This document shows, one piece after another, positions 4,551 through 51,390 of a DNA stretch of 61,683 bases (the first letter of the stretch is position 1; each line of letters starts with the position of its first letter). Source of the DNA: Bacillota bacterium (GTDB lineage Bacteria > Bacillota > Limnochordia > Darwinibacteriales > DTU012). The stretch spans positions 1-61,683 of the forward strand of contig JAAYMV010000030.1 in NCBI GenBank assembly GCA_012521185.1. Reading direction: 5' to 3'. The position numbers and the translations under genes were made by a program. The notes below the pieces were generated by a model. It searched no databases. It saw only the letters and a program-made list of their open reading frames with translations, and was not told the DNA's origin.

Positions 4551-7175
4551 TTGCGTAAACCTATTGCTCTTGTCTTTTTGGTCTTACTATTAATTATTGT
4601 TGGCAATGGCGTTAGTGCGGCTAAATGGGAAACAATGAAAACCGAAAGCTTCACTATTTTTTATCCAACTGAAATGGAAGAACATGCTTACCAGGTGCTC
4701 CAAATCTTGGAACACTATCGTCCGGCAGTAGAAGAATTTACTGGCAACAGTCGTAAAAATATGCCGATCGTGATCAATGATACAGGTGTATTAACTAATG
4801 GTTATGCTAATTCTGCTTTAAATTGGATTCAATTATTTTGGTATCCGCCTGAGGCAGGAATGATTGGAACAATAGAAGATTGGAATTCTTTAGTTGCGGT
4901 GCATGAATACACTCATATTTTACAAATGACTAATGCTTCAGGTGTCCATAGTCTTTTGACTTCAATCTTTGGCGATATTATGTCTCCTAATAATTTTGTT
5001 CCTTTGTGGATGATCGAGGGTTTAGCAGTTTATAGTGAATCCCGCCTTTGGAATTATCAAGGTAGGCTAAATGATGGTGCTTATGATGCCTACATTGGTG
5101 CTCGTGTAGCTGATGGTCGTTTTCCTACTATCCTTGAGGCCACTTTTGCACCACATGAGTTCCAACAGGATGGCATTTATACATACGGTTCAACCTTTAT
5201 TAATTATTTAGCAAAGACCTATGGAGAGGCAAAATTAACTGAATTTATTAATGTTCAAGGTTCTTCTTTATTTTCTTTAAATAGTAACGCCCGACTTGTT
5301 TTTGGCAAGAACTTTAAAGAATTGTGGTCAGATTGGCAGGCTTATGAAATAGAACGATTTAACAACTATTCTATAGATGGTATGCAAGTTACTAGGCGAG
5401 GCTGGGACATTACAAGTCCCTTATTAAAAAGCGATACTCAGACTAGGAAATTATATTATCAAGCTATTCGCCCCGTTAAAGTAGGCGCTGGCAAAGTTTA
5501 TTATCAAATCCAGATTGTTGAAAGAGACTTAGTTACCCAATTAGAAAAGGTGTTGCGAGCAACTACTTCAAGTTTTGCATTGCCTTTACGGGAGCATGAC
5601 AACAAACTTTATTATGGAATTTTTGAACAAGTGCCCGGTTATGCTAATGAACGGTACATGGGGTATGGTTATACGGTTCAGCTTCGAGCAATTGATTTAC
5701 AATCGGGAAAAGAACAGTTAGTACTAACTGCTCCTATTCGAGCTTACGACATTTTACCGAACGGTGATTTGCTTTATGCTCAGGCTACAAGGGATCAGTT
5801 TGGTTCTGAAATCTATCTTGTCTCTCTTGAACATGGTCAAAAGCTAATCAAAAAAGTAAACTATTTAATTGATGAAATTGCTATTGATGAACATCAAATC
5901 ATTATGGCTGCTCGGACAGAAAGAAGAAATACTGATTTATATCACTTTAATATAAATACCGGTGGTTTAGAGCCAATTCTTTTGACTCCTTATGCTGAAT
6001 ATGGCATTAGCCTAAGCAATCAGAAATTATTTTTTCACGCTAATTATGAATCAACCTATGCTGCTTATTGTTATGACTTACAATCAGGACAGCTATATAA
6101 AATGACTAAGGGTAATTTTGCTAAAAATCCTGTATTTGATGCCGACAATAATCAATTATATTTTCTTGGCTTAAACTCTTATGGTTATGATGTATATCGA
6201 AAAAATGCTGAGTTTACTAGGTATCAAATAGCGGAATACCCTGAAGAAAACTGGCCGAAATGGAACCTTAAGGGAGTACAAGTAACAAAAGGGGATGCTT
6301 TAGATAATATCAAAACTCTTGCGCCTAAAGTAATGTTGCCTTCGTATGCTATTCCTGAACAAGAAGGAGAAGAATTATTGCTATCCATCTCGTTCCTTGG
6401 GGGAGACGCTTTAGGAAAAGTTCCTATTTATCAGACAGCACTTATCTATAGTGTGGATTATGATCGGTGGTACTTTGAAACTGCCTTTGATCTTAATCTA
6501 TATCCACCTTTAAATATAAAATTGGGTTTTTCCAATTACCTTGAAAGTTTATTGTCCTTAGATCTGAATTATCCTTTTGTTAATCGTTTAGCACCAGGGC
6601 TTTCTGATTTAGTTTTAGGTTCGAAACTCACTTATAGTGCTTTAGATGAGTTGCAGTTAACTCCATATGGTGTTTTAGGCTTTCGTTTTCCAGGATTGTC
6701 AAGCACAGTAAGTTTACAGTTCCCGATTTATAGTGGTGTCGATAATAATGAACGATTTGGAATATACGGCAGCCTTGATATTAATAAGTATTTCAATAAT
6801 AGTGAGCTAGTTCTGTCAGTGACTGGAATCTATGATCCTGATAATCCTAAGGATGTTTTTCCTAAATTAAGAGGGTATAAGAATCCTTTGAATGCTAGAA
6901 TTGGTGGTGTGTATACTGCAGAATATTCGCTGCCAGTAATTCGAATTCGCGATGGGTTTAGTTTTCTATATTTTGAGGATTTATGGACCAGTCTCTTTGT
7001 TGACTCAGCAATTTCCAAGGGCCATGACTATCAACTGGCAGGCGGAATTGAGTTGTATCAGGAAATCAAGCTAGATTTAGGCCTAGCAACAATTGGAATT
7101 AATCCAGGTATTGGTATCGGATTTAACCGTGAAGGTGAACGGGTCTGGCATTTCGTTGTAAAAGGTTCATTTTAA
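4551..7175 (+). CDS. Secreted zinc metalloprotease-like / beta-propeller / outer-membrane barrel protein
   Basis: The 874-residue product starts with a signal peptide (residues 1-24, ending VSA/AK). A gluzincin-like domain follows, with HEYTH at 118-122 and a downstream EGLA glutamate at 156 as likely third zinc ligand. The middle (about 290-590) has repeated short strands (LYYQA, LYYGI, IYLVS, LYFLG) like a PD40/TolB-type beta-propeller. The last ~250 residues look like an amphipathic beta-barrel ending in aromatic Phe (FVVKGSF), the usual C-terminal signature of BamA-inserted proteins. It would therefore be an outer-membrane protein carrying a protease-like module. TTG 4551 is supported by AAAAGGAG nine bases upstream. 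The domain order is seen; activity and location are inferred. Confidence 0.7.
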   Translation: MRKPIALVFLVLLLIIVGNGVSAAKWETMKTESFTIFYPTEMEEHAYQVLQILEHYRPAVEEFTGNSRKNMPIVINDTGVLTNGYANSALNWIQLFWYPPEAGMIGTIEDWNSLVAVHEYTHILQMTNASGVHSLLTSIFGDIMSPNNFVPLWMIEGLAVYSESRLWNYQGRLNDGAYDAYIGARVADGRFPTILEATFAPHEFQQDGIYTYGSTFINYLAKTYGEAKLTEFINVQGSSLFSLNSNARLVFGKNFKELWSDWQAYEIERFNNYSIDGMQVTRRGWDITSPLLKSDTQTRKLYYQAIRPVKVGAGKVYYQIQIVERDLVTQLEKVLRATTSSFALPLREHDNKLYYGIFEQVPGYANERYMGYGYTVQLRAIDLQSGKEQLVLTAPIRAYDILPNGDLLYAQATRDQFGSEIYLVSLEHGQKLIKKVNYLIDEIAIDEHQIIMAARTERRNTDLYHFNINTGGLEPILLTPYAEYGISLSNQKLFFHANYESTYAAYCYDLQSGQLYKMTKGNFAKNPVFDADNNQLYFLGLNSYGYDVYRKNAEFTRYQIAEYPEENWPKWNLKGVQVTKGDALDNIKTLAPKVMLPSYAIPEQEGEELLLSISFLGGDALGKVPIYQTALIYSVDYDRWYFETAFDLNLYPPLNIKLGFSNYLESLLSLDLNYPFVNRLAPGLSDLVLGSKLTYSALDELQLTPYGVLGFRFPGLSSTVSLQFPIYSGVDNNERFGIYGSLDINKYFNNSELVLSVTGIYDPDNPKDVFPKLRGYKNPLNARIGGVYTAEYSLPVIRIRDGFSFLYFEDLWTSLFVDSAISKGHDYQLAGGIELYQEIKLDLGLATIGINPGIGIGFNREGERVWHFVVKGSF

Positions 7176-35433: not shown

Positions 35434-35446
35434 GGGGTTGTATTCG

Positions 35447-37225
35447 ATGTCAATGAAAAAACTGTTGATTTCGGGATTATTAATTTGGTTAATTCTTAGT
35501 AGTGGAGTTGGTGCTACGGAAGTATTTCCTCTTGATCAAGTTGTACCTGGCATGAAAGGCTATGGTAAAACAGTAGTTCAAGGCGCCAAAGTAGAAGAAT
35601 TTGATTTTGAAGTTTTGGATATTATTCCACAAACTCCTCCTATTCCAAGTTTAATAATGATAGAAGTTAGCGGAGACCTAATTGAGCGAAGTGACGGTAT
35701 TGCCTCTGGTATGAGTGGCAGTCCAGTCTATTTAGATGGAAAGTTGCTTGGCGCTATCGGTTATGGTTATTCTTATACCAATCATCGGATCGGTTTGGTT
35801 ACTCCAGCAGAAAGTATGATGGAGTTAATAAATGAAGTGTCGGATATGGATGAGCTGCCTTTACCAAAAGACTTTGAGCCACTAGCAACCCCAATGTTAT
35901 TAGGTGGATTTCAAAATCGAGCAGCAAAAATCTTAGAAAAGCAATTTGCGCCGCATAATCTACAAGTTATTCCAGGATTGACAGGTAATAGTGGTTCCTT
36001 TGAAAATATCATGTTAGAGCCAGGTTCTGCGTTTGGCGTACAACTGCTGCGTGGAGACTTTCAAGTTGTAGCATTTGGTACTATAACGGCTATCACAGAA
36101 ACTGGGTCTTTTGTAGGCTTTGGCCATCCTTTCCTGCATAAAGGAAAAGTAAACTACTTTGTAGCTCCAGCATTTGTTCATTACACCATGCCGCATTTGG
36201 AAATTCCATACAAAATAGCTTCAGTCGGACCAAGTGTTGGTACTTTGTTACTAGATCGTTCTTCTGGGGTGGCAGGCCTTTTAGGAAAACAAACTCCTTA
36301 TATTCCCATCAATATTCAGGTTCATGATTTAACTGAGAATAGATTGCGGGAGTTTAAGGTGGAAGCTGTTACTGATGACAGTTTATTATCAGCTTTAGCT
36401 ATTAGTAGCGTTTATCAAGGGATTGATTCTACTTTAGATAGGATTGGAAAAGGCACTGCCTATGTACGCTTAGAGTTTCATTCAAATGATCTTTTAAAAC
36501 CAATAATTCGGGAAAATATGTTTTATAGCGATTCTGATATTGCTGTCTGGGCCTTATCTGATTTAAATGAAGGGCTGGAATTGTTAATCGCTAATGATTT
36601 GCAAGATGTAACTTTGAGTGGAATTAATACAAAGATTACCATCGAAGAAGGTAGAAAAACTGCTTCCATTGAAAAAGCCATTCCAACAAGTTTCCAAGTT
36701 CGTGCTGGTGAAAGTGTGGATATTGAGGTATTAATTCGTCCTTATCGACAACCAGTTGAATATCGGGTGTTAAGAATTACCATTCCGGAGGAAACTTTAC
36801 CTGGTTATATGACTGTGACAGTTCGCGGCGGAGGAATGGGCTATTATGCTAGTAAGCCGACAGTTCATACAACTTGGCAATCGTTTGAAGCAGAGGATGA
36901 TGAAATGCCTTGGCAATCCCTGAGTGGAGCAGAAAGCTTAGATAAGCTGTTAGAAGATTACATGTTACGAGAACAAAACAATGAAATTGTAGCTGAATTT
37001 TATCCTTATATCGACAGCTATTCGAGTAATGACATTGTTGAAGAAGTTGTGGAAACTTTAGCACAAAATGGAAACTCTATTCCAATTAGTGAACTTGTTT
37101 TGTTAGAGCCTGAGTACGGAGGTTATCACTGGGAGGACTTAGGATCGGAGGGTGTTAGAGTTCGCTTAACAACTCAATTTGTAATTGAAGGGTCAGCTAG
37201 CTTTGATATTGAGGTAATTAAATAA
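35447..37225 (+). CDS. Peptidase S55 (SpoIVB-type) domain protein
   Basis: A 592-residue secreted protein. After a signal peptide (about 1-24) comes the S55 core with FPLDQVVPGMKGYGKT and the catalytic GMSGSP motif at residues 88-93, then FVGFGHPFLHKGK, the conserved GHP block, near residue 225. The SpoIVB PDZ domain is not obvious, and a ~250-residue C-terminal part rich in beta strands and Glu has no recognised fold. In B. subtilis SpoIVB signals sigma-K activation; this longer paralogue next to bamA and a glycosidase is more likely an envelope protease. ATG 35447 is nine bases after GAGGGG. Confidence 0.8.
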   Translation: MSMKKLLISGLLIWLILSSGVGATEVFPLDQVVPGMKGYGKTVVQGAKVEEFDFEVLDIIPQTPPIPSLIMIEVSGDLIERSDGIASGMSGSPVYLDGKLLGAIGYGYSYTNHRIGLVTPAESMMELINEVSDMDELPLPKDFEPLATPMLLGGFQNRAAKILEKQFAPHNLQVIPGLTGNSGSFENIMLEPGSAFGVQLLRGDFQVVAFGTITAITETGSFVGFGHPFLHKGKVNYFVAPAFVHYTMPHLEIPYKIASVGPSVGTLLLDRSSGVAGLLGKQTPYIPINIQVHDLTENRLREFKVEAVTDDSLLSALAISSVYQGIDSTLDRIGKGTAYVRLEFHSNDLLKPIIRENMFYSDSDIAVWALSDLNEGLELLIANDLQDVTLSGINTKITIEEGRKTASIEKAIPTSFQVRAGESVDIEVLIRPYRQPVEYRVLRITIPEETLPGYMTVTVRGGGMGYYASKPTVHTTWQSFEAEDDEMPWQSLSGAESLDKLLEDYMLREQNNEIVAEFYPYIDSYSSNDIVEEVVETLAQNGNSIPISELVLLEPEYGGYHWEDLGSEGVRVRLTTQFVIEGSASFDIEVIK

Positions 37226-37391: not shown

Positions 37392-39131
37392 ATGGACTCA
37401 TATAGGAATATTTTTACAAAAGTTTTTATAATAATGTTTTGTGCACTTATAGTTTTTAGTGGTACTTCAATACCAACAAATGCCCAAGGTGTACCGTTTA
37501 TTAAAGCAGTAGTAGTTCGAGGCAATGAGAATATTGATACAGCTTTAATTGAAAAAGCGATTACTAAAACTGTCGTTGACAGTCGTTACTCAGAAGAAAA
37601 CATTAAAGATGACTTAGATGCAATTTATGCTCTTGGTTACTTTGCAATGGCTACCGCTCACCCAAGTTGGATTGATGGTGGAGTGATGGTAGCTTTCGAG
37701 GTGACAGAAAACCCAGTAGTCACTGAAGTAGTTTTTCAGGGTTCCAAAAAAATAACTTTAGATGATTATTTAGCAGTAATGGAAACCAAATCAGGAGAAG
37801 TTTTAAATATTCATGATCTATTTGAAGATATTGATAATCTGCCAAATTGGGTTTTAGATAATCATGGTGTGTCGCTTCGTCCTGTCAACTTGAATGTAAG
37901 CGAAGAAGGAATCGTTGAAATTCAAGTAGCCGAAGCAATTATTCAAGATATTCTGATTGATGGTAATGAAAAAACTAAAGACCATGTGATTTTAAGAGAA
38001 CTAACTTTCCAGCCAGGAGATGTAGTTGACTTAAATGAGATTAATCGCAGTTTAAGAAATGTGTTAATGCTTGGTTATTTTGATGAAGTAAGCTTTAGTG
38101 CAAGTGAAGGCGATACTATTGATGACACCATTCTAACTTTACATGTAACTGAGCGTAAAACAGGAAACGCTGATTTTGGAATTGGTTACAGCTCCCGAGA
38201 CGGGGTTTTTGGCTATACTGATATTTCCGAGGAGAACTTCCTTGGCAATGGTCAGCGTGTAAACTTCTATTTTGAAATAGGTAAAGGACACCGAGCATTT
38301 AAAGTAGGATTTTACGAGCCATACATTGATAAAAGCGGCCTTTCATTTGGTGCCAATGCCCATTATACGAAAACAGAGCAAAAGCATAAGCTAGAAGAAG
38401 ATGGTGACACAGAATCGGAAGAAATTACTGGTAATCTAATTACAACTGGTGGAGATATTACCATCGGTCGCCGTTTTGGTAATTACTCGCGCGCTAGTTT
38501 AACGATGCGCTTAAACAATAATAAATATGTGGATGGTTTGGAGCAGTATAAAGATGATTATCGCAGTCTAACCTTTACCTTAGGCGCCTTAACTAATACA
38601 ACTGATCATCCATTCTATCCAACTGAAGGATTTATTAATACAGCCCGCTTCGAGTTAGGGACTAGATTATTTGGTGGAGAAGCGGTTTATTCAAAATTTG
38701 ATTTAGAACACAGCCGTTATTATGGAATAAAAGACAGTAAGTTTGTATTTGCGTTTCGTGGACGAGTAGGTCGCTTATTAAGCGGAATATTACGTAATGA
38801 AGAGTTGTATCGTTTAGGTGGTTCTGAAACCCTTAGAGGTTATGACTACGGTGGGGAAGGTTTAGTCGGAGATAAATTGGCACTATTTAATGCCGAGTTT
38901 AGATTCCCCATCTTTGAAAGAGTTTATGGTGTATTCTTTGCAGATTTAGGTAAAGTTTGGGATTATGAAGATCCTATGAGCTTGTCGGAAATGGTTGAAA
39001 ATGTGGGCTATGGAGCAGGTTTACGCGTAGACACACCACTTGGGTTATTTAGATTTGATTATGGTATTGGTCAAGACGATGACGATCAACGTCAAGGTAA
39101 ATTTTATTTTGGAATTGGCCAAACATTTTAA
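37392..39131 (+). CDS. bamA: Outer membrane assembly factor BamA
   Basis: BamA (579 aa) inserts beta-barrel proteins into the outer membrane. After a signal peptide (about 1-32) there appear to be three POTRA domains (about 35-265; e.g. VVVRGNENIDTALIEKAI, VVFQGSKKITLDDYL, ILIDGNEKTKDHVILRELTF), fewer than the five of E. coli. The 16-strand barrel follows, with LGGSETLRGYDYGGEG as the VRGF-type loop-6 motif and the closing strand FYFGIGQTF ending in Phe. AGGGGG lies eight bases before the ATG. It ends in its own terminator, before the chaperone genes. Confidence 0.93.
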   Translation: MDSYRNIFTKVFIIMFCALIVFSGTSIPTNAQGVPFIKAVVVRGNENIDTALIEKAITKTVVDSRYSEENIKDDLDAIYALGYFAMATAHPSWIDGGVMVAFEVTENPVVTEVVFQGSKKITLDDYLAVMETKSGEVLNIHDLFEDIDNLPNWVLDNHGVSLRPVNLNVSEEGIVEIQVAEAIIQDILIDGNEKTKDHVILRELTFQPGDVVDLNEINRSLRNVLMLGYFDEVSFSASEGDTIDDTILTLHVTERKTGNADFGIGYSSRDGVFGYTDISEENFLGNGQRVNFYFEIGKGHRAFKVGFYEPYIDKSGLSFGANAHYTKTEQKHKLEEDGDTESEEITGNLITTGGDITIGRRFGNYSRASLTMRLNNNKYVDGLEQYKDDYRSLTFTLGALTNTTDHPFYPTEGFINTARFELGTRLFGGEAVYSKFDLEHSRYYGIKDSKFVFAFRGRVGRLLSGILRNEELYRLGGSETLRGYDYGGEGLVGDKLALFNAEFRFPIFERVYGVFFADLGKVWDYEDPMSLSEMVENVGYGAGLRVDTPLGLFRFDYGIGQDDDDQRQGKFYFGIGQTF

Positions 39132-39137
39132 TTAGTT

Positions 39138-39169
39138 AAAAGCCAGGGTTAGTAAACCCTGGCTTTTAT
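39138..39169 (+). terminator. bamA terminator
   Basis: Thirteen-bp perfect arms AAAAGCCAGGGTT (39138-39150) and AACCCTGGCTTTT (39155-39167) around a four-base loop. Confidence 0.85.
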
Positions 39170-39246
39170 TGGATTTGCATAGAAGTCTGTCCCTTGTTAT
39201 AATTACATTGTTGGTAATAATAATCATTATAACAGGGGGAATTATC

Positions 39247-39669
39247 TTGTTGAAAGAACGTAGATATTTAGCTATCTTTGTTGGTCTTGTAGTTTTAACT
39301 CTAGTTTTAGCTGGAGTTTTTGTATCTTCTGCTCAAGGTCAAGCGGAGCAAGAGATTGGAATAATCAATATGGAGGTTATCTTTACTGAATATTTAGCAC
39401 CTCCTCTATTTGCGGCACGTGATCAAATGCAACAAGAATTTGAAGAAAAAGCAGAAGAATTATCTGATGAAGAAAAAAATCAGTTATTTATTGACTATCA
39501 AGCTAAATTGGAAACTATTGAGATCGAATACAGCAACAATATTATGAATGCTGTAGCTAAAGTAGCAAAAACAAAAGGTTTAAGCATGGTAATTGATTCA
39601 GCAGCAGTGTTACATGGCGGTTTAGATGTAACAACCGATATTTTAAATGAATTAGCGGAACAAAAATAG
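39247..39669 (+). CDS. OmpH/Skp-like periplasmic chaperone (first copy)
   Basis: A 140-residue OmpH family protein with an N-terminal signal or anchor helix (about 6-33). IGIINMEVIF then starts the OmpH core, a charged helical tentacle (about 55-100, rich in Glu/Lys/Gln) follows, and the end strand LSMVIDSAAVLHGGLDVT resembles the OmpH/Skp pattern ADxVxxxGGxDxT. Such chaperones hold unfolded barrel proteins for BamA. TTG 39247 or 39250 follows AGGGGGA; a promoter-like TTGTTA with TAATAA 18 bases on lies upstream at 39194-39223. Confidence 0.8.
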   Translation: MLKERRYLAIFVGLVVLTLVLAGVFVSSAQGQAEQEIGIINMEVIFTEYLAPPLFAARDQMQQEFEEKAEELSDEEKNQLFIDYQAKLETIEIEYSNNIMNAVAKVAKTKGLSMVIDSAAVLHGGLDVTTDILNELAEQK

Positions 39670-39681
39670 TAGAGTTTGACT

Positions 39682-40350
39682 ATGAAGCAGACTTTAGTGC
39701 TAATCAGCTTAATTATGACTGTATTAGTCATCAGTGGGTGGCTAGGATATTCAGCAATTGAATCCTGGCCATCTATTGTCCATGCTGAACAAGCTACCAT
39801 GGATTATACAGAATATCAAAAAGAACTTAGTAAGTTAATTAAAGAATACGATTCTAAAGTACAAGCAAAAATTACAGAGTTACAGCAGAAGGGTGAAGAC
39901 GCTTTTGCTCAGAAGTTAGCTGAATCACAAGCTGCTTATGAAGAAGCCGTGCTTAGTTATCAAGAACAGTTAGCACAAGAAGCAGTAGTTACTGAAGAAA
40001 AACTGACTGAATGGTATGTAAATCCGATTATCAATTTAGAGTTACAATTGGCGATGGTTAGTTTATCTGAAGAAAAACGGCAAGAAATAATTGTTAAACT
40101 TGACCGCTTAAAGAATGAGTTTAATGAATTAAAAAGCGAATATGAACAAATGTTAGATGAAAAATTGCAAGTGTTTATGGCTAATGAAGAAGAGGTACAA
40201 AAAGCGGCCTTAAGCAGTTGGGCAGAGGATTATCAGGCAAAGTTAGCTAATGAGCTGGAAATACATGTGGCTAAACTAGAGCATCAGTTAAATAGTGAGG
40301 TTTTAAAACTTGAGTCAGCTTTGGGTAGAGCAACTACAGCTAGGGAATAA
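39682..40350 (+). CDS. Coiled-coil periplasmic protein, divergent OmpH-like (second copy)
   Basis: The 222-residue protein has an N-terminal membrane segment or signal (1-30), then almost entirely heptad-like helix rich in Glu, Lys, Gln and Ala. Within it one segment is almost without charge (WYVNPIINLELQLAMVSL near residue 115). It lacks the OmpH C-terminal strand signature, so the family link rests on composition and on its position between two OmpH genes 12 and 30 bases away. It could be an extended chaperone tentacle or a periplasm-spanning spacer. ATG 39682 is preferred to the TTG two codons earlier. Confidence 0.6.
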   Translation: MKQTLVLISLIMTVLVISGWLGYSAIESWPSIVHAEQATMDYTEYQKELSKLIKEYDSKVQAKITELQQKGEDAFAQKLAESQAAYEEAVLSYQEQLAQEAVVTEEKLTEWYVNPIINLELQLAMVSLSEEKRQEIIVKLDRLKNEFNELKSEYEQMLDEKLQVFMANEEEVQKAALSSWAEDYQAKLANELEIHVAKLEHQLNSEVLKLESALGRATTARE

Positions 40351-40380
40351 TAATGGGAGGATGAAAGGCGGTGTCCCATT

Positions 40381-40800
40381 ATGAAACAGATTCTCCAGTT
40401 GTTAGTTGCTCTTTTTTTAGGATTAATCATAGGAATTCTTTTAAGTGATAGTCAATCTGCTGTGGAGATCGGGCTAGTAAATATGGGGAAAATTGTTGAT
40501 GAAAGTCCAAAGGCTCATGAATTAAATCAGCAATTGAGCGAAATGTACCAACTTCTTTTAGCTGAAATTCAAGAGCAACGGGAAAGATTAAGTGACGAGG
40601 AATTAGCTGAGGTGGAAAAAGCAGCTTATGCCCAGTATTTGGAGTATCGTGAGCAATTAGAAAGCCAATTTCAGCAGGCCTTAGATCAGGCCATTGCTGA
40701 TGCAGCAGAGGCTGATAACATACATATTGTGTTAGATAAAGAACTAGTGCGCTATGGCGGTAAAGACCTGACTAATAAGGTAATTAAGCGCTTAGAGTAA
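40381..40800 (+). CDS. OmpH/Skp-like periplasmic chaperone (third copy)
   Basis: 139 residues: N-terminal hydrophobic segment (5-24), GLVNMGKIVDESPKAHEL as the OmpH start, a helical middle with ERLSDEELAEVEKAA, and the ending IHIVLDKELVRYGGKDLTNKVI, a clear OmpH signature. It is closer to canonical Skp than the second copy. With the two genes upstream it forms a run of three putative barrel chaperones after bamA. Confidence 0.82.
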   Translation: MKQILQLLVALFLGLIIGILLSDSQSAVEIGLVNMGKIVDESPKAHELNQQLSEMYQLLLAEIQEQRERLSDEELAEVEKAAYAQYLEYREQLESQFQQALDQAIADAAEADNIHIVLDKELVRYGGKDLTNKVIKRLE

Positions 40801-40900
40801 TATTTTTGTGGTAACAAATACCGGAGAGGTGAAGAAGGTAATAATCGCCTAAAAATAGAATATATATGCTCAATGAAGATAGTGAGAGGAGATTAGATGT

Positions 40901-41545
40901 ATGAAAAAATACGGCACAAGTTTATACTTGGGAATTATTCTCATTGGTTTTCTATTAGTCTTTAATAGTCAAGTACAAGCGAATACTGTAGAGGGAATTA
41001 CCGGTTTAATTAATACGCCAACTGCTTCAGTTATGCCTGATGGTCAGCTCAGTGCTAATTTTCATTCTTTTAGAGGTGAGCGGTTTGCGGCAATAGGTCT
41101 CGGAGTATTTCCAGGGGTAGAGGTAGGTTTATCTTCTCATTTGGCTTCACATACAGAATTAGTTGGTTCATTAAAAGTCAATTTAATTACGGAAGATGAT
41201 TGGCCAGCAATTGCAGTAGGTTTACAATCTAGTCACGATGGCACTGACTACTACATAGTAGGTAGCAAACAACTGGGAACAGTCGGACTACGTGGTCACT
41301 TCGGTATTGGAACAGGCAAGTTTAGAGGTGGATTTGGAGGAATTAGCAGTGTATTAAATCCGGTGGCCATTTCAAATACTTCTAGCAATTTTGTGGTACC
41401 TTTGACTACTTTTATGATCGAATATGATGGCCATGGACTTAATTCAGGCCTTTCTTTCAAGTTTGGTCAGGACCTGGCTGCAAAAGTATATGTTACTGAT
41501 TTACAAAATTTTGGTTTTAGTTTTAAGTATAGTGTTATGTTTTAA
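40901..41545 (+). CDS. YjbH-like outer membrane barrel protein
   Basis: The 214-residue product has a signal peptide (1-28) and begins with VEGITGLINTPTASVMPDGQL. This is the opening of YjbH/'exopolysaccharide biosynthesis' outer-membrane barrels, where GxxGxxxTPTA is conserved. Amphipathic strands follow, ending in SFKYSVMF with the C-terminal Phe required for Bam recognition. It is much shorter than YjbH, enough for a barrel of 8-10 strands. AGAGGAG lies nine bases before the ATG. The function is unknown. Confidence 0.7.
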   Translation: MKKYGTSLYLGIILIGFLLVFNSQVQANTVEGITGLINTPTASVMPDGQLSANFHSFRGERFAAIGLGVFPGVEVGLSSHLASHTELVGSLKVNLITEDDWPAIAVGLQSSHDGTDYYIVGSKQLGTVGLRGHFGIGTGKFRGGFGGISSVLNPVAISNTSSNFVVPLTTFMIEYDGHGLNSGLSFKFGQDLAAKVYVTDLQNFGFSFKYSVMF

Positions 41546-41579
41546 TTATCAGTAGCTGTAGAAAGGGGTTGGAGTAAAT

Positions 41580-42692
41580 TTGAAATCGCAGGCAATGAAT
41601 AGCTCTTGGAAAGGCTCGATAATTCTCGATACCTATACCTTGCGCGAATTTCTCGGCCCCTTTATATTTTGTGTCCTTGGTTTTACAGTAATTCTGTTAA
41701 GCGGTTTGCTGTTTGAATTAGTAGATTATATTTTAGTCAAGAATGTGCCAGCTTCGACAGTTGGCAAGATGTTATTTTACAAGATTCCTGAGCTGATGGT
41801 CATGACGCTACCCATTGCTGCTTTATTTTCAACTTTATTAGCCTTGGGAAGACTGCATCAGGATAGTGAGTTAAAGGTTATGCGCAGTAGTGGAATTCCT
41901 TATCGGCGGATAATGATCCCAATTATTTTAGCGGGTTTTTTAATTAGCTGTTTAACTTATGTAACTAACGAACGGGTAGTTCCCTGGGCTAACCACGAGT
42001 TTGAAAAGATTTTCCGTGAGATTTTATTTAAAGATGGTTTGCCGCTGGTAGAAGAAAATGTTTTCTTTAACGGGGGAGACGATCGATTTTTTTATATTCA
42101 TAAAGTGGACAAGGGAACAAACAAGTTAGAAAAGATAATGATTTATGAGTTACAGCGTCAAGGATTTCCTCGCTTAATAACAGCAAAAACAGGAACTTAC
42201 GTAAAAAACAATTGGTTTTTGACCGATGGAATTGTACAGGAGTTAGACGAAGAGGGTTTTGTCAGTTATCAAACAAGATTTGAGTCAATGCAGATTATTA
42301 CTCCTGATGACGCAGAACTCTATTTTGGTAATCAGCGTTCAACAGATGAGATGAACCGTAGGGAGCTGAAGGAACACATTGAAAGGTTCCGCCAAAGTGG
42401 TTTGCGGGTAGTTTCGTTTTTAGTTGATTATCACTTAAAGTTGGCTATGCCAATGGCTTCTTTTATTTTTGTATTGTTTGGTGCCCCATTAAGTATTTAT
42501 AGTAAAGGCGGTCGGTCATTTGGTATAGCAGTTAGTTTGGTGGTGACAGTTATTTTTTATGTAGGTAATTCTGTCGGCCGTTCTTTAGGCGTCAATGAGG
42601 TATTACCTCCGTTAGCTGCAGCCTGGTTAACTAACGCGATGTTTGCGATTATTGGCTGTTTATTGCTAATGCGAATTGACCGCTTAAAATAA
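41580..42692 (+). CDS. LptF/LptG family glycolipid export permease
   Basis: A 370-residue YjgP/YjgQ-type permease. Three N-terminal helices (about 22-50, 65-90, 110-130) with LREFLGPFIFCVLGF, the SELKVMRSSGIPYRRIMIP coupling segment, a periplasmic beta-jellyroll (about 140-270) and three C-terminal helices are the family layout. Only one such gene is present where Proteobacteria have two, so it may work as a homodimer with LptB. The TTG start has GGAG upstream. It heads the lpt run. Confidence 0.9.
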   Translation: MKSQAMNSSWKGSIILDTYTLREFLGPFIFCVLGFTVILLSGLLFELVDYILVKNVPASTVGKMLFYKIPELMVMTLPIAALFSTLLALGRLHQDSELKVMRSSGIPYRRIMIPIILAGFLISCLTYVTNERVVPWANHEFEKIFREILFKDGLPLVEENVFFNGGDDRFFYIHKVDKGTNKLEKIMIYELQRQGFPRLITAKTGTYVKNNWFLTDGIVQELDEEGFVSYQTRFESMQIITPDDAELYFGNQRSTDEMNRRELKEHIERFRQSGLRVVSFLVDYHLKLAMPMASFIFVLFGAPLSIYSKGGRSFGIAVSLVVTVIFYVGNSVGRSLGVNEVLPPLAAAWLTNAMFAIIGCLLLMRIDRLK

Positions 42693-42705
42693 TAGAAGGG
42701 TGGTT

Positions 42706-44895
42706 ATGTTGAAAAAGGCGCTATTATTACTACTATGTAGTTTTTTGCTATTCATGGTTGGTTTAGTTGATTTAGCATCAGCCGCTTCCCCTGTGGAAAT
42801 CAGTGCTAAAGATTCAGTTCGCTTTGATTTGACCACCCATCAGTTTTTTGCTGAAGGAGATGTAGTCATCGAATTTGATGATCTTACTCTTTATGGTGAT
42901 CGTCTATTATGGGATTCAGATAAACAGATACTTTACCTTGATGGTAATGTAATAATGGAACAATCTGAGGAACGTTTCTACGGTGACAGTCTAGTTTATA
43001 ATGTGGAAACGTCTCAAGGTACATTTGAACAAGTCTATTCCGAATTTAGTGGTGAAAATATCAATGGTCTAATTTTTGTGTTTGGCGATCAAATGCACAT
43101 TGATGGTGATGATTTTCATATTGTACAGGGTAAGGTAAGTACTTGTGATTTATCCACACCTCACTATCATTTAGCTATTAAATCAATCCAGGTTTATCCA
43201 GGTGAGAAAATGATAATCCGTGGTGTTACCTACTATGAAGGTAAAATACCACTGTTTTATTGGCCATATTTAGCTATTCCCTTAGATAATCGGTTTGATG
43301 TAGACTACTTTAATTTGCCAGAAGTTGGCTATAGTGCTAAAGACGGCTATTACATCAAAAATCGTTATAATTATTTTATTACGCAAAATGCTAATGGGAC
43401 TATTTTTTATGATTATTATACAAAGCATGGTTTTGGTTTAGGTCTCAACCATAATTACGGACATCGCTCACTTGGTAAGGGTAATTTTGCTTTCTATTCT
43501 ATTCCAGCTACTCATCGACAATACTTTAGTACGCAGTTGAATCATGAATATGAGCAAGACAATTTAAAACTAACAACTAAAAATGCCTATTATCAAGAGT
43601 TAGTTGATGATATTTTGGAAGTAAAGCGGAAAACTCAAACGAGTCTCTATTATAGGCGGGAAGGTTTAACAGTAACTGGGAGTGTGAACTATGAGGATGA
43701 AATCGGCTCTAGTGAATCCCGAGACATGACTTTAGCGGGAAGTTGGAACCAAAAAATCACTCCTAATTTAGATTTAAATTTACGGGGCAGCGTTACTGCT
43801 AAAGATGATGAGAGAGTTATTAACCAATTAGCAGAAACTGCTTATCGTCTTAATAATCATACTTTTTCCTTATCCTTCCAACAACAATACAACCCGGATA
43901 TCTTAGATCCAGAGGCCACTGCTTCTTGGCGAAGTGTAAATAAGTTGCCTGAATTTACCTGGCGCTGGCAAAATCCAACTTTCAATGGTCAACGATTTCC
44001 GGGACGATTTGAGTTAGGCGTTGGACGTTATCTAGAATATCCTTCTCTGGTTGTCAGTTGGCGAGTTGCACCAAAGTTGGAACTTTCTTCACGGACATGG
44101 CGGTCAGATTTTGGAACAACTTTAACTTATAGCGGTGGTTTAGCTGGTTATTTCTATGATTACGATCTGAGTCAACAAGTTGCTCATGGGCGGATCAGTT
44201 TAGTGCAAAGTTTAACTCCTAACTTAAGATTTTCTTCCACGTATAATCGGCAAGTTGTTTTTGGAGAGACGCTCTTTAGGTTTGATCAGCAGAATCCGCG
44301 TCACACTTTAACCGGTCAGTTGTCCTATACGAATCGACCGTTTACAGCTTCCATTCGGACAGGATATAATTTTGAGTTAGAGCGTTTTGATAGTTTGGTT
44401 AAGCAAGTCAGTTGGAATAATTATAACGCAGGGTTAAATCTTAGTGCCACAATGTATTACAATTTAAACACTAAGCAGTTTGGCAATTTGGTAACCATGT
44501 TCAATTATCGACCCCATGAGCGTTTCAATATTCGGCTTGGCAGTCGTTATCAGTTAAACAATCAGCGTTTTGAACGGGTTGATAGTCAATTATCTTTTGA
44601 TTTAACTGAAAAAATTGCTGTAAAATACGATATGATTTACGATATGATTAAGCAAAAGTTTACTCGTGGAGAGTTAACCGTGACTATTGATTTGCACTGT
44701 CGTGAATTATCTTTAGCATATAATCAAGTCCGGGAAGAATTTCGGGTGAAATATTCTTTAAATGCATTTCCTAAATTACCGTTAGGTTTTAGTTCTACTG
44801 ATGGCATCAGTTTATTTGAACTTACTGACTTGCAGGAATTACTCGGGATTGACAGTGATGATGACGATGAAGAAGATGACGATGATTATGATTAG
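42706..44895 (+). CDS. lptD: LPS-assembly protein LptD-like
   Basis: A 729-residue outer-membrane translocon protein. After a signal peptide (about 1-26) an OstA-like beta-jellyroll (30-170) has EGDVVIEFDDLTLYGDRL and DGNVIMEQSEERFYGD repeats. Then comes the barrel with YYEGKIPLFYWPYLAIPL, the conserved LptD strand. It delivers glycolipid to the surface; the LptE partner is not seen. The C-terminus is unusual: after the last strand comes a run of Asp/Glu (14 residues from 44851) instead of a terminal aromatic residue. GAAGGGTGG precedes ATG 42706. Confidence 0.87.
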   Translation: MLKKALLLLLCSFLLFMVGLVDLASAASPVEISAKDSVRFDLTTHQFFAEGDVVIEFDDLTLYGDRLLWDSDKQILYLDGNVIMEQSEERFYGDSLVYNVETSQGTFEQVYSEFSGENINGLIFVFGDQMHIDGDDFHIVQGKVSTCDLSTPHYHLAIKSIQVYPGEKMIIRGVTYYEGKIPLFYWPYLAIPLDNRFDVDYFNLPEVGYSAKDGYYIKNRYNYFITQNANGTIFYDYYTKHGFGLGLNHNYGHRSLGKGNFAFYSIPATHRQYFSTQLNHEYEQDNLKLTTKNAYYQELVDDILEVKRKTQTSLYYRREGLTVTGSVNYEDEIGSSESRDMTLAGSWNQKITPNLDLNLRGSVTAKDDERVINQLAETAYRLNNHTFSLSFQQQYNPDILDPEATASWRSVNKLPEFTWRWQNPTFNGQRFPGRFELGVGRYLEYPSLVVSWRVAPKLELSSRTWRSDFGTTLTYSGGLAGYFYDYDLSQQVAHGRISLVQSLTPNLRFSSTYNRQVVFGETLFRFDQQNPRHTLTGQLSYTNRPFTASIRTGYNFELERFDSLVKQVSWNNYNAGLNLSATMYYNLNTKQFGNLVTMFNYRPHERFNIRLGSRYQLNNQRFERVDSQLSFDLTEKIAVKYDMIYDMIKQKFTRGELTVTIDLHCRELSLAYNQVREEFRVKYSLNAFPKLPLGFSSTDGISLFELTDLQELLGIDSDDDDEEDDDDYD

Positions 44896-44906
44896 AGGTG
44901 AGATAA

Positions 44907-45371
44907 GTGCGCCTTACTAAAAAAAGAGTTATTATCTTGTTGATGGCGATACTTGTCTTACTGTTAATTTGGTTTTGTAACTTTCGACCTAAAACAGAGA
45001 GTCAGTCGCCGAAACAAGAAGCTGGGGTTTCTTTTTCCAATGTATACCTGGTAGGAAATGAGTCAGGAGTCAAACAATGGGAACTAGTTAGTAAGTCATT
45101 GAAGCAAGATGGAGATAAATTTCATTTAGACGACTTAGAGTATCTGTTATTGCTGGAAAACTCTAAACCGAAATATTTTGTGGAGGCTCAGAAAGGGCTT
45201 TGGGACCGGAAAGCACAAGTTTTGACTTTAGACAATGATGTTGTGGTGGATGATCATAAAGGTTTTCGTCTACTGACTAATTCATTATTATGGTACACTG
45301 AGGAAGATGTTTTTTACTTTCACGGAGACACAATAGTAACTTTTGAAGAAGGTGGAGTGGCTAATGAGTAA
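44907..45371 (+). CDS. lptC: LptC-like bitopic transport protein
   Basis: A 154-residue protein with one N-terminal transmembrane helix (about 8-27) and a periplasmic beta-jellyroll carrying VEAQKGLWDRKAQVLTLDNDVVV. This is typical of LptC/YrbK, which passes glycolipid from LptF/G to LptA. GTG start with GAGGTGA upstream. It lies between lptD and lptA and overlaps the latter by eight bases. Confidence 0.82.
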   Translation: MRLTKKRVIILLMAILVLLLIWFCNFRPKTESQSPKQEAGVSFSNVYLVGNESGVKQWELVSKSLKQDGDKFHLDDLEYLLLLENSKPKYFVEAQKGLWDRKAQVLTLDNDVVVDDHKGFRLLTNSLLWYTEEDVFYFHGDTIVTFEEGGVANE

Positions 45372-45942
45372 CTTAAACAGGCTCTTATTAGGATTAGTAG
45401 TCTGTCTGCTTTGTGTTACGGGAATCACTGAATCTGGACTTGCTAATGAGCAAAAAGAGAAGCAAGGACAATTGGAAATTGTTGGGGTGCCGGCTCAAGC
45501 CGTAGCTGGAACTTATTATACTAAAACTGATGTTTTTTATGCTGATGTTCAGGACATTGAAGGTGCTTTTGTTCGAATAACTTACGATGATCTAGTGATT
45601 ATTGGCCGTGTGGTAGAATGGCGACGGAAAGATAATTATTTAAAGGTTACGGTTGATGCCAGTCTAGAACAGAAAGATATGAATATAATCGCTGATCAAA
45701 TTGAATATTTTACCGAGGAAGAGCGTTTATTGGCAGAAGGTAACTTACAGGTTACTACTGAAGATGCAACGGTATACGCTGACCGAATGGTTCATCTAGA
45801 AAAAGAAGAAAAAACGGACTTCTTTGCTAATGTAGCTGTTCATATTACTGATGGAAAACTTTTTGGGGATCACTTTGTAATCTATTCAGCTGAAGATCGA
45901 ATGGAATTTATTGGTAGTTTCCGCGGTGAATTTGACCGTTAG
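45364..45942 (+). CDS. lptA: LptA/OstA-like periplasmic bridge protein
   Basis: 192 residues with a signal peptide (about 1-28) and an OstA-type jellyroll: IIADQIEYFTEEERLLAEGNLQVTTEDATVYADRM is interrupted by conserved positions seen in LptA, and DGKLFGDHFVIYSAEDRMEF closes it. It would multimerise head to tail to bridge LptC and LptD. The N-terminal ~70 residues appear to be an extra degenerate repeat (YYTKTDVFYADVQDIEGAFV). ATG 45364 is seven bases after AAGGTGGAG. Confidence 0.82.
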   Translation: MSNLNRLLLGLVVCLLCVTGITESGLANEQKEKQGQLEIVGVPAQAVAGTYYTKTDVFYADVQDIEGAFVRITYDDLVIIGRVVEWRRKDNYLKVTVDASLEQKDMNIIADQIEYFTEEERLLAEGNLQVTTEDATVYADRMVHLEKEEKTDFFANVAVHITDGKLFGDHFVIYSAEDRMEFIGSFRGEFDR

Positions 45943-45975
45943 CCAGTTCCTGCCTGATATAGTTACTATTACTAG

Positions 45976-46004
45976 TTAAGCCCTCTCTCACTGTGTGATA
46001 TAAT
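45976..46004 (+). promoter_or_regulatory. Putative promoter with palindrome upstream of the ABC permease
   Basis: TATAAT (45999-46004) is consensus; the -35 region TTAAGC (45976-45981, 17-base spacer) is weak. A perfect short palindrome TCAC-TGT-GTGA (45988-45998) directly abuts the -10, so an activator or repressor could control this unit separately from the lpt genes. Confidence 0.45.
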
Positions 46005-46034
46005 GGAATCACCAGGTGAGGAGGGTTATTTGTT

Positions 46035-48182
46035 ATGCTACAATTTTTTCGTGATGGTTTTTTAAAAGATTATATAGTACTGATGTTAGTTACCATTGTT
46101 GTTGGAGCAATTTTCTCCTCAGGGTTAGCCTGGGCGGTGGATTCCCATTTTGGTGATTCAATTAACCAGATGATTGGGGATCAGGGAGAATATGATCTTA
46201 TATTGCACATCCGGGAAGAAGCGAAGGAAGTAGCTTTGCGGGAACTTGAAAGAATAGCTGAAGAACAATTTCCGGGGGCTAAAATAAATGAAACTTTAAC
46301 TGTGGCTGGTCAATCCAATATCTTTTTTGGATTTCCGCCAGCTGCAAAGACAGAAGAGGTTTTTGTTAACTTGCCAGGCATTTTTAATGGGGTGCCAGGG
46401 CTAAATGGTTATACTGTAATTGTTGAGCCTAGCATTTTAATTCGCGGTGTTCATCCAAGTGTCCGTCAACAATTACAAGAACGATTCCAGGAAATAACTG
46501 GAGTGAAATTCTCTTTTAAAGATGGACTAAATATGTTAGTAGTTTTAGATTCGATGGATAATAGTAAAGCAGTATCTGAAGAAATTCAAGCTATTTTAGA
46601 TGAATATCAAATTCTTGAACTTCGCTTTCCTATGGGTTTTCAGGTAGATACAGGTCAGGTAGCAAATGAAGTTATGGATTTGATTAAAGACCAAGTCAAT
46701 CCCGATCAAATGTTGAATGTTTCTTCGGCTGAATATGGTGAAGAATTAGATGCTTTCTTGAAGACTTTAGTGGAGATGCGCAACTTTTTATTAAGTTATG
46801 CTTCTAAAGTAAGGATAAAGGCTAAACCGGGCTTCCATTTAGTTGAAGGAGAACAAATTGTAGTACAAGGTACTGGCGAAGTAGTACCTAGCCAAGATAG
46901 TGAATTTGAAGAAGGTTTAGTAGTTGTGGAAGTAATAAATGTTCAAGGGGATCAAGCAGAAGGAATGATCATCAAAGGCTCAATTTCTGATGCAACAGAA
47001 GTGTTAGAGCAAAAAGGCTATCGCCTTTTAAGTAATGGCACAATTAGTGAATATCTGGCTGATGTGGAATTAGAAAATGAACGTTATTATTTACAATATG
47101 CGGTAGAAGAAAGTCTTCGGTTATTACGAGAATTAGATGAGTTAGCAGTGGAAGCGTCCTTAGCGGTCGAGAATGCTGATGCAATATTAAATAGCTTTCA
47201 AGAGGCATTAATGCAGTTAGAAGTGTTACAAATCCAATTGCACAAATTAAGTGAAGGTTTAACTCAAAATGGAACACAGTCGGCTAGTGAGCAATTAATT
47301 GTTTCTTTATTAGTTAATGGCTTAGTTAAAAACTTAGTTCAAGCTGGAGCAGAAAACTTACCAGATAATTCATTACAATCCTTAGAGGATTTAGATGTGG
47401 AGGCGATGCGCTCTAGTTTAAGTAATATTGCTAGTCAAATTACTAATGTGCAAGATATTGATGTACAAGCAATTATCGATCAGATTAGTTATGTAAGAGA
47501 TAGTTTGCCTTTGCTTGAAGATGAAGATATTGGCAAGTCGATTCGGTTAATTAACACTTATTTGGCAGGACAGGTGATTCCTGGTGAACGCGTTCAAATT
47601 TTAATTCAAAATGGAATAATTGACGACAAACAATTTGAAGCAGAAATTCGTGACAGTCTAGATAATGATTATGTGAACACTTATTTAACTACCGTAGGAA
47701 TGATTAATCCTGATGCTCGCGCTGAATTATTTAAGCTTTTAAAGGAGATTCGGGCGACTATTGCTGGTATGTTAGCAGTGGTATTTGTAATTGCAATACT
47801 AATTCTTGATCAAGCTACAATTTTCAGTACACTTAAATTCTTACGCAGTACTAGGAATGCAGCGAAAAATAAAATCCTTCGTTTAGTCAATCCAGCAATT
47901 ATATTTAGCAGTTTAATCGGTATGATTTTATTAAGTAATATTTATCTATTGGCAAAAGCTGAAATACCATTCGTAACAATTGAAATCGTTGCCATAGCCG
48001 GATTAATAATTGGTGCTTTAATTGGCGGATTATCAGAAAGATTTAGTCCAGTTAATTCCCAGGAAATAATGGCAGGTCAGGCATTGGGCTTAAGTAATGT
48101 TCAAATTATGCGTGAAATAGTGATTCCAGCTAGTAGGCCTGGACTATTAAATCTGCTTAATCGAGCTAAACAACGTTTTTAG
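46035..48182 (+). CDS. Unusual ABC transporter permease with large periplasmic domain
   Basis: The 715-residue product has one N-terminal transmembrane helix (about 13-36), a very large extracytoplasmic region (about 37-575) with alpha/beta parts and predicted coiled coils (350-420, 440-520), and three C-terminal helices (about 578-600, 620-642, 648-668). This is the topology of type VII ABC permeases such as MacB, LolC/E and FtsX. The last 40 residues read EIMAGQALGLSNVQIMREIVIPASRPGL in pattern, the EAA coupling loop of type I importers. No transmembrane helix follows it, and the protein stops 15 residues later. It is followed after 13 bases by an ATPase gene. The substrate is unknown; the lpt context suggests an envelope component. 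Confidence 0.6.
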   Translation: MLQFFRDGFLKDYIVLMLVTIVVGAIFSSGLAWAVDSHFGDSINQMIGDQGEYDLILHIREEAKEVALRELERIAEEQFPGAKINETLTVAGQSNIFFGFPPAAKTEEVFVNLPGIFNGVPGLNGYTVIVEPSILIRGVHPSVRQQLQERFQEITGVKFSFKDGLNMLVVLDSMDNSKAVSEEIQAILDEYQILELRFPMGFQVDTGQVANEVMDLIKDQVNPDQMLNVSSAEYGEELDAFLKTLVEMRNFLLSYASKVRIKAKPGFHLVEGEQIVVQGTGEVVPSQDSEFEEGLVVVEVINVQGDQAEGMIIKGSISDATEVLEQKGYRLLSNGTISEYLADVELENERYYLQYAVEESLRLLRELDELAVEASLAVENADAILNSFQEALMQLEVLQIQLHKLSEGLTQNGTQSASEQLIVSLLVNGLVKNLVQAGAENLPDNSLQSLEDLDVEAMRSSLSNIASQITNVQDIDVQAIIDQISYVRDSLPLLEDEDIGKSIRLINTYLAGQVIPGERVQILIQNGIIDDKQFEAEIRDSLDNDYVNTYLTTVGMINPDARAELFKLLKEIRATIAGMLAVVFVIAILILDQATIFSTLKFLRSTRNAAKNKILRLVNPAIIFSSLIGMILLSNIYLLAKAEIPFVTIEIVAIAGLIIGALIGGLSERFSPVNSQEIMAGQALGLSNVQIMREIVIPASRPGLLNLLNRAKQRF

Positions 48183-48195
48183 GGGGAAGGAACTG

Positions 48196-48924
48196 ATGTT
48201 ACAAATAAGAGATTTATATAAAAGTTATGGGAAACAGGTTGCTCTTAATGGAGTTAACCTTGATGTTAAACGAGGAGAAACGTTGGTGATCATGGGGCCG
48301 AGTGGCTGTGGCAAGTCGACTACAATTAGGTGTATTAATCGCTTGACTGAACCAGATCAAGGTTCAATTGTTGTAGATGGTAAGGCTGTTTTGGAGTTAC
48401 AAGGAGAAGCATTGCGAGCCTATCGGCGTAATGTAGGCTTTGTTTTTCAGCAATTTAATCTGATTAATCGGCTAACTGTCTTTGATAATGTGATTTTTCA
48501 TTTGGTTTTAGCTGGAGTTGAGCGAGACTTGGCCGAAGAAAGGGCGGAACAAGCCCTCCGCAAGGTGGGGATGCTAAAGCATCGTCATAAAAAGCCAACA
48601 AACTTAAGTGGTGGTGAGCAACAGCGAGTTGGCATTGCCAGGGCCTTAGCATCTAATCCTGATTTAATGCTTTGGGATGAGCCAACAGCCTCTCTAGATC
48701 CGATTTTGGTTGGGGAAGTATTAGAGGTAATGGAAGAATTGGTTAGGACCACGCAAACAACGATGGTTATAGTAACCCATGAGGTTTCTTTTGCTTTAAA
48801 AGTTGCTGATCGGATCGTGTTAATGGATCAGGGACAAATAGTAGAGGCAGGTTCGCCGCAAGCAGTATTTAATGCGCCTAAATCTGAAATTGGGAGAAAG
48901 TATCAAAAGCTAATAGCAGGCTAA
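48196..48924 (+). CDS. ABC transporter ATP-binding protein, GlnQ-like
   Basis: A 242-residue ABC ATPase: Walker A GPSGCGKST near residue 35, Q-loop FVFQQFNLINRLTVFDNV, signature LSGGEQQRVGIARAL, Walker B LMLWDEPTASLDP and H-loop VTHE. The FNL-type Q-loop and the DEPTASLDP form are those of polar amino acid (GlnQ/HisP) importers rather than LolD/MacB (DEPTGNLD). No periplasmic binding protein gene is nearby, so the partner must be the odd permease upstream. AGGGGGAAGG precedes the ATG. Confidence 0.85.
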   Translation: MLQIRDLYKSYGKQVALNGVNLDVKRGETLVIMGPSGCGKSTTIRCINRLTEPDQGSIVVDGKAVLELQGEALRAYRRNVGFVFQQFNLINRLTVFDNVIFHLVLAGVERDLAEERAEQALRKVGMLKHRHKKPTNLSGGEQQRVGIARALASNPDLMLWDEPTASLDPILVGEVLEVMEELVRTTQTTMVIVTHEVSFALKVADRIVLMDQGQIVEAGSPQAVFNAPKSEIGRKYQKLIAG

Positions 48925-48994
48925 AGTCAAGATTTTCCACAATTTGCTTTAAGCAGGAAAACTAGAATTTATGCCGAAACTGTAAACTAACCTG

Positions 48995-49021
48995 AATAAG
49001 CCGAGATCATCTCGGCTTATT
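48995..49021. terminator. Hairpin terminator between ABC and fabZ genes
   Basis: AATAAGCCGAGAT (48995-49007) and ATCTCGGCTTATT (49009-49021) are perfect complements. The plus-strand T-run is short, so the structure may be leaky or bidirectional. Confidence 0.65.
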
Positions 49022-49049
49022 TGATAAAGAGGATTAAGAAGGTGATGAA

Positions 49050-49523
49050 ATGTTAGATATAAATCAAATAATGGAACGTTTACCTCATCGGTATCCTTTT
49101 TTATTGGTGGATCGGGTTTTGGAGTTGGAAAGAGGAAAAAGAGCTGTTGTAGTTAAAAATGTAACTATTAACGAACCTTTTTTTCAAGGTCATTATCCGA
49201 ATTTGCCGGTGATGCCTGGAGTTTTAATTATTGAAGCTATGGCACAAGCAGGAGGCTTAGCTGCCGCTGTGGATAGTGATGCTGATATGGTTCCTTTATT
49301 TGCAGCTATTGATAAAGCTCGCTTTCGTCGGGTTGTTCGACCAGGCGATCAATTAATAATTACTATTGAAGTACTCAGAGCACGCGGTTCATATATTAAA
49401 GTAAAAGCTACAGCAGAAGTAGATAAAGAGTTAGCTGCTGAAGGTGAGTTAACATTTGTGCTTACGGAGAAGGGAGTTTCTAATAGCAATGGCACATCCA
49501 AAAGTGATGATAATCGGAAGTGA
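49050..49523 (+). CDS. fabZ: 3-hydroxyacyl-[ACP] dehydratase FabZ
   Basis: FabZ (157 aa) dehydrates 3-hydroxyacyl-ACP in fatty acid elongation. The N-terminus IMERLPHRYPFLLVDRV and catalytic His48 (QGHYPNLPVMPG) and Glu62 (IIEAMAQ) are canonical. In Gram-negatives fabZ lies in lpxD-fabZ-lpxA-lpxB because both pathways share 3-hydroxyacyl-ACP. Here the lpxB-like gene overlaps its 3' end by 35 bases and lpxA is not between them. AAGGTGATG precedes the start. Confidence 0.94.
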   Translation: MLDINQIMERLPHRYPFLLVDRVLELERGKRAVVVKNVTINEPFFQGHYPNLPVMPGVLIIEAMAQAGGLAAAVDSDADMVPLFAAIDKARFRRVVRPGDQLIITIEVLRARGSYIKVKATAEVDKELAAEGELTFVLTEKGVSNSNGTSKSDDNRK

Positions 49524-50625
49524 CAGTGCTAGTGATCTTTACGGTAGTGAATTAGCTAAGCGACTAATTCAAAAAGCGGAAGATATTAGCTTATTTGGTG
49601 TTGGCGGGGGATTGATGCAAGGGTCTGGTGTCGAACTGCTTTATGACATATCAGGCTTAAACAGTATTGGAGCTTGTGATTCAACAAAAGGCAACCATAT
49701 TATTAAACGGTTAGTTAAAAGATTGATTGAAACAATGGATATGGAGCAACCTGATTTAGTTATCCAGATTGGCCTACCAGTTTTTAATTTGCGAATTACT
49801 GAATTTGCTAAGTCCAAAGGTATTCCAGTTTTTTATTATAACACTCCAATAAATTGGTGTTGTAACGAAGTTAAGATTAATAGGCTGGCTAAAACCGTAG
49901 ATCAGGTAATCGGTGTATCTCGCTATGAGGTAAATGTTTGTAATGAGAACCAGATTACTGCCGATTTTATCGGCCATCCCTTAGTGGATATAGCACAGAC
50001 TAATAAATCTCGTGAAGAATTACTTGATGAATATCAGCTAGATGGTTCTCGCCCGACAGTGGTGTTTTTACCTGGTACTAGGCAGATTGATGTGAAAGTT
50101 TTATTTCCAACCATGTTAAAAACTATAAAAAAAATCCAGAATGAATTGCCGGCAGTTCAGATAATTGTAGGCATAGCTCCGAATACTATTAGCCAGCAAT
50201 GGATTGATACTTTGATTGAGCAATTTGAAGTAGAAAGATTTACTATTACAGCAGATACCCATGGTATCTTACATGTTTGCGATTTAGCAGTGGTTAACAG
50301 CGGTTTTGAAAGTATTGAAGCCTCATTGGCGAATGTTCCGACTATTGCTGTTCAAAAATTCACTAATTCCAATTTATTTGGTCAGAGGATTAATCGAACG
50401 GAATATTTTTCAATGATTAATTTTTTAATGCAAGATGAAGTGGTATTGGAATTGGTAGATAATGACTTTTCTGAAGCGAAGATTTTTGAAGCGGTAGGAT
50501 TTTTGTTAGAAAATAAGCAGGAAAGAGCAAATATTTTAGCTGGGTATTCTGGTTTAACAGAAGAATTAGGTTCGCCAGGTACGATTGATAAAGCTGCTGA
50601 GTTGATTTTTGCTAAGTTGGATTAG
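49489..50625 (+). CDS. Divergent lipid-A-disaccharide synthase-like glycosyltransferase (LpxB-like)
   Basis: A 378-residue GT19/GT-B type protein: [15 protein letters not shown] at the N-terminus where LpxB has AGEx[28 protein letters not shown] where LpxB has (I)DAPDFN, the HPLVD and PGTRQ motifs of the C-terminal nucleotide-sugar domain, and [10 protein letters not shown] where LpxB has SGTATLE. The overall frame is LpxB, but several near-invariant acidic residues (Glu of AGExSGD, both Asp of DAPDFN) are replaced, so substrate or chemistry may differ. ATG 49489 lies 12 bases after AAGGGAG, inside fabZ. Confidence 0.7.
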
Positions 50626-50635
50626 GAGAGTACTT

Positions 50636-51355: not shown

Positions 51356-51390
51356 GATTAAATTGTTTTCCGAAGGGGGTGGCCAGCTAT

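Follow-up and report, generated by a model that had tools for sequence, protein, structure and literature searches.

A predicted zinc protease, beta-propeller and Omp85-type outer-membrane barrel in one chain from a diderm Bacillota bacterium: architecture, distribution and proposed function

Introduction

The window (the whole stretch of 61,683 nucleotides that was analysed, positions 1 to 61,683 of contig JAAYMV010000030.1 of a Bacillota bacterium) contains an open reading frame (ORF) at 4551-7175 on the forward strand, which raises the question of whether a protease, a propeller and an outer-membrane barrel are indeed joined in a single polypeptide, what kind of barrel this is, and on which side of the membrane the enzyme would work.

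Results and discussion

One chain with three domains

The ORF exactly matches the coordinates and residue numbers given in an earlier note on this DNA. It encodes 874 amino acids from a TTG start, which lies 74 bases past the end of trpS and about 10 bases downstream of a Shine-Dalgarno sequence, AGGAG. Because searching the PDB and genome contigs with the single sequence yielded no matches for the protein, profiles were required. The full-length AlphaFold2 (AF2) model, for which an alignment of 51 relatives served as input (pLDDT 91.2, pTM 0.92), together with the conserved zinc ligands, bears out the three-domain reading proposed in the earlier note. As modelled, the gene product is one chain in which an Omp85-type outer-membrane barrel follows a zinc-protease domain and a beta-propeller, a layout that the computational evidence establishes as follows:

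4551..4619, forward strand: Sec-type signal peptide MRKPIALVFLVLLLIIVGNGVSA, from the sequence, with cleavage predicted before AKW
4626..5366, forward strand: gluzincin-type zinc peptidase domain, residues 26-272 (Pfam, AF2, Foldseek, invariance)
5403..6206, forward strand: beta-propeller of about six blades, residues 285-552 (AF2, Foldseek, profiles, PD40)
6306..7172, forward strand: Omp85-type outer-membrane beta-barrel of 15-16 strands, residues 586-874 (AF2, hhalign, Pfam of relatives)
6867..6878, forward strand: LRGY motif, residues 773-776, in the L6 loop (AF2 strand positions and conservation)

The full-length structure prediction that had been suggested as a check places the barrel at residues 594-872, and the C-terminal residue is Phe, as had been claimed.

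A gluzincin domain with an invariant active site

In the model, residues 26-270 adopt an alpha/beta zincin fold that shows the features of the gluzincin clan MA(E), namely, a helix (residues 111-126) with the HExxH motif, here HEYTH at residues 118-122, and a second helix (residues 152-165) with the downstream Glu ligand, E156, within WMIEGLAVY. The predicted zinc ligands are H118, H122 and E156, with E119 as the putative general base and Y210 as the candidate M1-like Tyr. Pfam Peptidase_MA_2 matched the protein with an E-value of 4e-6, under the cut-off, and the sole clear relative of solved structure found with the domain profile was the M1 aminopeptidase 3cia (E 4.9e-5), in an alignment that pairs the EG helix and the catalytic-Tyr motif YxxG; in M1 enzymes, the Tyr of this motif stabilises the transition state. 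Because the Foldseek results for the full model were swamped by propellers, the peptidase domain was folded separately (pLDDT 90.5). The lone domain matched M9 collagenases, M30 lugdulysin, M1 and M61 peptidases with TM scores of about 0.5-0.6, and nearly all of its top 50 Foldseek matches were zincin peptidases of the M9/M30/M1/M61/M60-like type.

Nine residues (H118, E119, H122, E156, E163, G171, R172, Y210 and G213) are invariant in all 51 sequences, which span many phyla, with the caveat that the loci were fetched with an HExxH pattern, such that conservation of this motif there is partly built into the search. A query devoid of the peptidase domain was therefore used to re-test conservation in the window's class, and the full-length propeller-barrel matches with the N-terminus on the contig keep both HExxH and YxYG. 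The four residues singled out for a conservation check in the earlier note, His118, Glu119, His122 and Glu156, are also invariant in 13 class-level relatives, which, combined with the 51 multi-phylum sequences, makes for a pattern far beyond chance and computationally establishes the conserved active-site set. That the protein is a pseudo-enzyme or a structural receptor, with the zincin fold kept for binding only, is highly improbable given that none of the zinc-binding or catalytic residues, M1-like Tyr included, varies among such divergent sequences.

The assignment of the domain to a known family is less straightforward. The second His and the Glu are separated by 33 residues in the window protein and by 33-39 in the relatives, and the GxMEN motif is absent from all 63 rows checked. 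In M1 peptidases, which possess GxMEN, 18 residues separate the two ligands (HExxH-x18-E), and membership in M1 was rejected on both counts. Membership in M9 was also rejected because, in these collagenases, the Glu sits 28-30 residues downstream (PMC3711286); M9 Pfam matches were found in only 2 of the 51 relatives and were weak. The domain shares with M9 collagenase, M30 lugdulysin and the M1 aminopeptidases the HExxH motif with a downstream Glu (EGxA helix) and the M1-type Tyr motif YxxG, but differs from M9 and M1 in the His-Glu spacing and lacks the GxMEN exopeptidase motif. Judging from these sequence features, it is a gluzincin that fits none of the families compared, and the absence of GxMEN makes an endopeptidase likelier than an aminopeptidase.

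A TolB-like propeller and an Omp85-type barrel

The PD40-type propeller recognised in the earlier note is supported by the AF2 model. TolB is the closest propeller by both profile (E 1.4e-35 for the family profile) and fold (Foldseek E 4e-8 for the full model, in which prolyl oligopeptidases and tricorn also came up), and PD40 was found in 34 of the 51 relatives; unlike the window protein, TolB is soluble and has neither a barrel nor a peptidase domain. The propellers of prolyl oligopeptidases and tricorn select substrates and, by analogy, the propeller of the window protein, placed between the enzyme and the membrane, probably does so too.

The modelled barrel comprises 15 clear strands over residues 610-872, or 16 when residues 594-600 are counted. 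Its longest loop (residues 762-783), located between the strands counted 11 and 12 and preceding the last five strands, carries the LRGY sequence, in which R, G and Y are conserved in 49, 50 and 47 of the 51 relatives, respectively. By sequence and position, it is the Omp85 L6 motif ([LV]RG[YF]), as in BamA and FhaC. Pfam PF01103 did not match the window protein itself and matched 16 of the 51 relatives (E up to 0.1, the best being 1.9e-8). The barrel profile of distant relatives matched solved structures, including a POTRA protein (E 7.8e-9), BamA 8xnb (E 8.3e-7) and TamA, as well as the BamA barrel profile of the window's class (E 1.3e-26), and the barrel subfamily of the window protein, in turn, matched the barrels of these distant relatives (hhalign E 2.9e-18). 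Given that the direct comparison of the window's barrel subfamily with BamA was not significant (hhalign probability 1.2%), the Omp85 assignment, although computationally established, rests on this chain of comparisons along with the motif and the fold. Thus, the barrel claimed in the earlier note is present, but its Omp85 nature, apparent from the L6 motif, had gone unnoticed. No POTRA domain was detected by Pfam in the window protein or in the 51 relatives; in the AF2 model, the propeller takes that place.

Heinz and Lithgow (2014) delineated ten Omp85 subfamilies, including WD40-Omp85, which consists of a propeller and a barrel (PMC4104836). The window family is close to this subfamily, sharing with it a TolB-like propeller directly N-terminal to the Omp85 barrel and the absence of POTRA; in the published text, WD40-Omp85 is likened to a BamA-BamB fusion and a peptidase domain is not mentioned (PMC4104836). 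The 'Metallo' subfamily of the same study was rejected as a match for the window family because its defining domain, PF00149, is a different one.

Distribution and phylogeny of the family

Relatives were found in at least 333 loci of a one-genome-per-species collection, the named ones coming from Bacillota, Goldbacteria, Myxococcota, Pseudomonadota, Nitrospirota, Acidobacteriota, Thermodesulfobacteriota and Edwardsbacteria. Within the window's class, the propeller-barrel profile matched in 31 of the 73 genomes, with the weak matches covering the propeller only; in 17 of the 73, about a quarter, the match took in the barrel or the greater part of the chain. With these numbers, the description of the fusion as unusual in the earlier note does not hold. 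Rather, the protease-propeller-Omp85 family is common; no paper on the triple architecture was found in the open-licence library searched. Its scattered occurrence across genomes speaks against a housekeeping role for the family. Omp85 matches were present in 59 of the 61 genomes searched (the window's own and 60 relatives), indicating that the group is diderm.

The phylogenetic tree places the window's copy, with strong support, in one branch with ten MAGs of Bacillota and four bins that carry a Goldbacteria or Methylomirabilis label. The copies in its own family-level relatives are remote from this branch, which was therefore either acquired by transfer or is an old paralogue. These relatives carry a very different copy, with about 20% identity, on the opposite side of the tree. 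The L043-L046 loci, from Goldbacteria and a Methylomirabilis-labelled bin, belong to the window's subfamily, with about 30% identity; phylum-to-phylum transfer or a mislabelled bin are both possible explanations.

Genomic surroundings

The trpS, GNAT, SDR and codY genes that adjoin the gene are not common to the 15 close loci, and a functional link to any of them was therefore rejected. No family-wide neighbour recurs among 460 flanking ORFs, the neighbour comparisons revealed no genomic linkage to envelope genes, and a plasmid origin, also considered, gave no match.

Elsewhere in the window, positions 37392-52590 encompass a diderm-Firmicute envelope cluster that encodes BamA with POTRA, OmpH/Skp-like, YjbH-like, LptF/G, OstA/LptD-like and LpxB proteins. 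Just upstream of BamA, a 595-aa protein with a SpoIVB S55 peptidase domain (35438-37225) adjoins a NAGPA-domain protein and recalls Vpar_0521 of Veillonella, which also has a SpoIVB domain (PMC5491611). Two proteins, one within the cluster (46035-48182, 715 aa) and one just after it (55727-57088, 453 aa), have no significant Pfam match, and a 738-aa protein (52914-55130) with an SLH domain followed by a predicted coiled coil resembles the OmpM-like outer-membrane tethers.

Orthology of the gene under study with TolB or BamA was rejected on the strength of its domain layout and the presence of a separate BamA. The latter also bears on the alternative that the propeller and the barrel form a fused BamB-BamA-like insertase or a TAM-like module, whose clients the peptidase would trim. 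Such an outer-membrane assembly factor would come near to what Heinz and Lithgow proposed for WD40-Omp85 proteins (PMC4104836), and the barrel does retain the BamA-typical L6 motif. Nevertheless, we consider it unlikely: the protein lacks POTRA, a BamA that does carry it is already encoded in the genome (37392-39131), roughly three in four genomes of the class do not have the family, and the invariant residues are mostly in the peptidase rather than in the barrel.

Membrane side and proposed function

In Omp85 barrels, the L6 loop is extracellular and the N-terminus is periplasmic. The position of L6 in the window barrel, together with this parity, would place both N-terminal domains, propeller and peptidase, on the periplasmic side. 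Among enzyme-Omp85 fusions, the best studied is PlpD, which resembles the window protein in having an N-terminal enzyme fused to a C-terminal Omp85 barrel, although this patatin-Omp85 protein is a lipase rather than a zinc peptidase and has POTRA instead of a propeller; upon re-testing, its enzyme domain was found only in the periplasm (PMC11116518). The earlier note had left the choice between surface and periplasm open; Omp85 parity and the PlpD precedent favour the periplasm and make the surface the less likely side.

These considerations weigh on the alternative of a self-secreting, type Vd-like protein, in which the barrel would thread the protease and the propeller to the surface, where external protein would be digested, for food or in competition. 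FhaC-type Omp85 barrels do secrete partners, and PlpD, the type example, was originally described as self-secreting (background in PMC11116518), but the re-test contradicts that description, threading of a propeller plus a zincin via the lumen is unlikely, and the full-length AF2 model is compact and confident, all of which renders this alternative improbable.

We therefore favour, as reasonably likely, an outer-membrane-anchored periplasmic zinc endopeptidase with the propeller guiding substrates, a reading in which we infer the membrane side, the activity, the substrate and the role of the propeller. The protein would be exported by Sec, and its C-terminal Omp85-type barrel would be inserted by BAM and serve mainly as an anchor; both the gluzincin domain and the propeller would face the periplasm. 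Substrates recognised or filtered by the propeller would be cleaved at the zinc site formed by H118, H122 and E156, where E119 would act as the general base and Y210 would stabilise the transition state. By analogy, the likeliest role of such an anchored endopeptidase would be turnover or quality control of envelope proteins, that is, outer-membrane or periplasmic ones, in a manner that would be BepA-like yet covalently anchored. BepA (M48) is a periplasmic zinc protease that acts on LptD at BAM (PMC8423444). The likeness, that of a periplasmic zinc protease working at the outer membrane, is an analogy only because BepA is soluble, has TPR in place of the propeller and lacks a barrel. A more far-reaching and rather doubtful idea is that the family is a widespread, hitherto unrecognised Omp85 class of one-piece outer-membrane quality-control machines, in which a single chain would recognise substrates, cut them and, perhaps, insert or remove barrels.

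Omp85 proteins were long thought to be insertases or translocases only, until PlpD demonstrated that the scaffold can bear a periplasmic enzyme. A conserved family that joins protease, propeller and Omp85 barrel would extend this idea of enzyme-bearing Omp85 proteins to proteolysis, and the invariant active site makes it directly testable. Genomes of this diderm Firmicute group have been reported to contain one Omp85 homolog each (PMC5491611); the family described here would give these bacteria a second Omp85-type protein.
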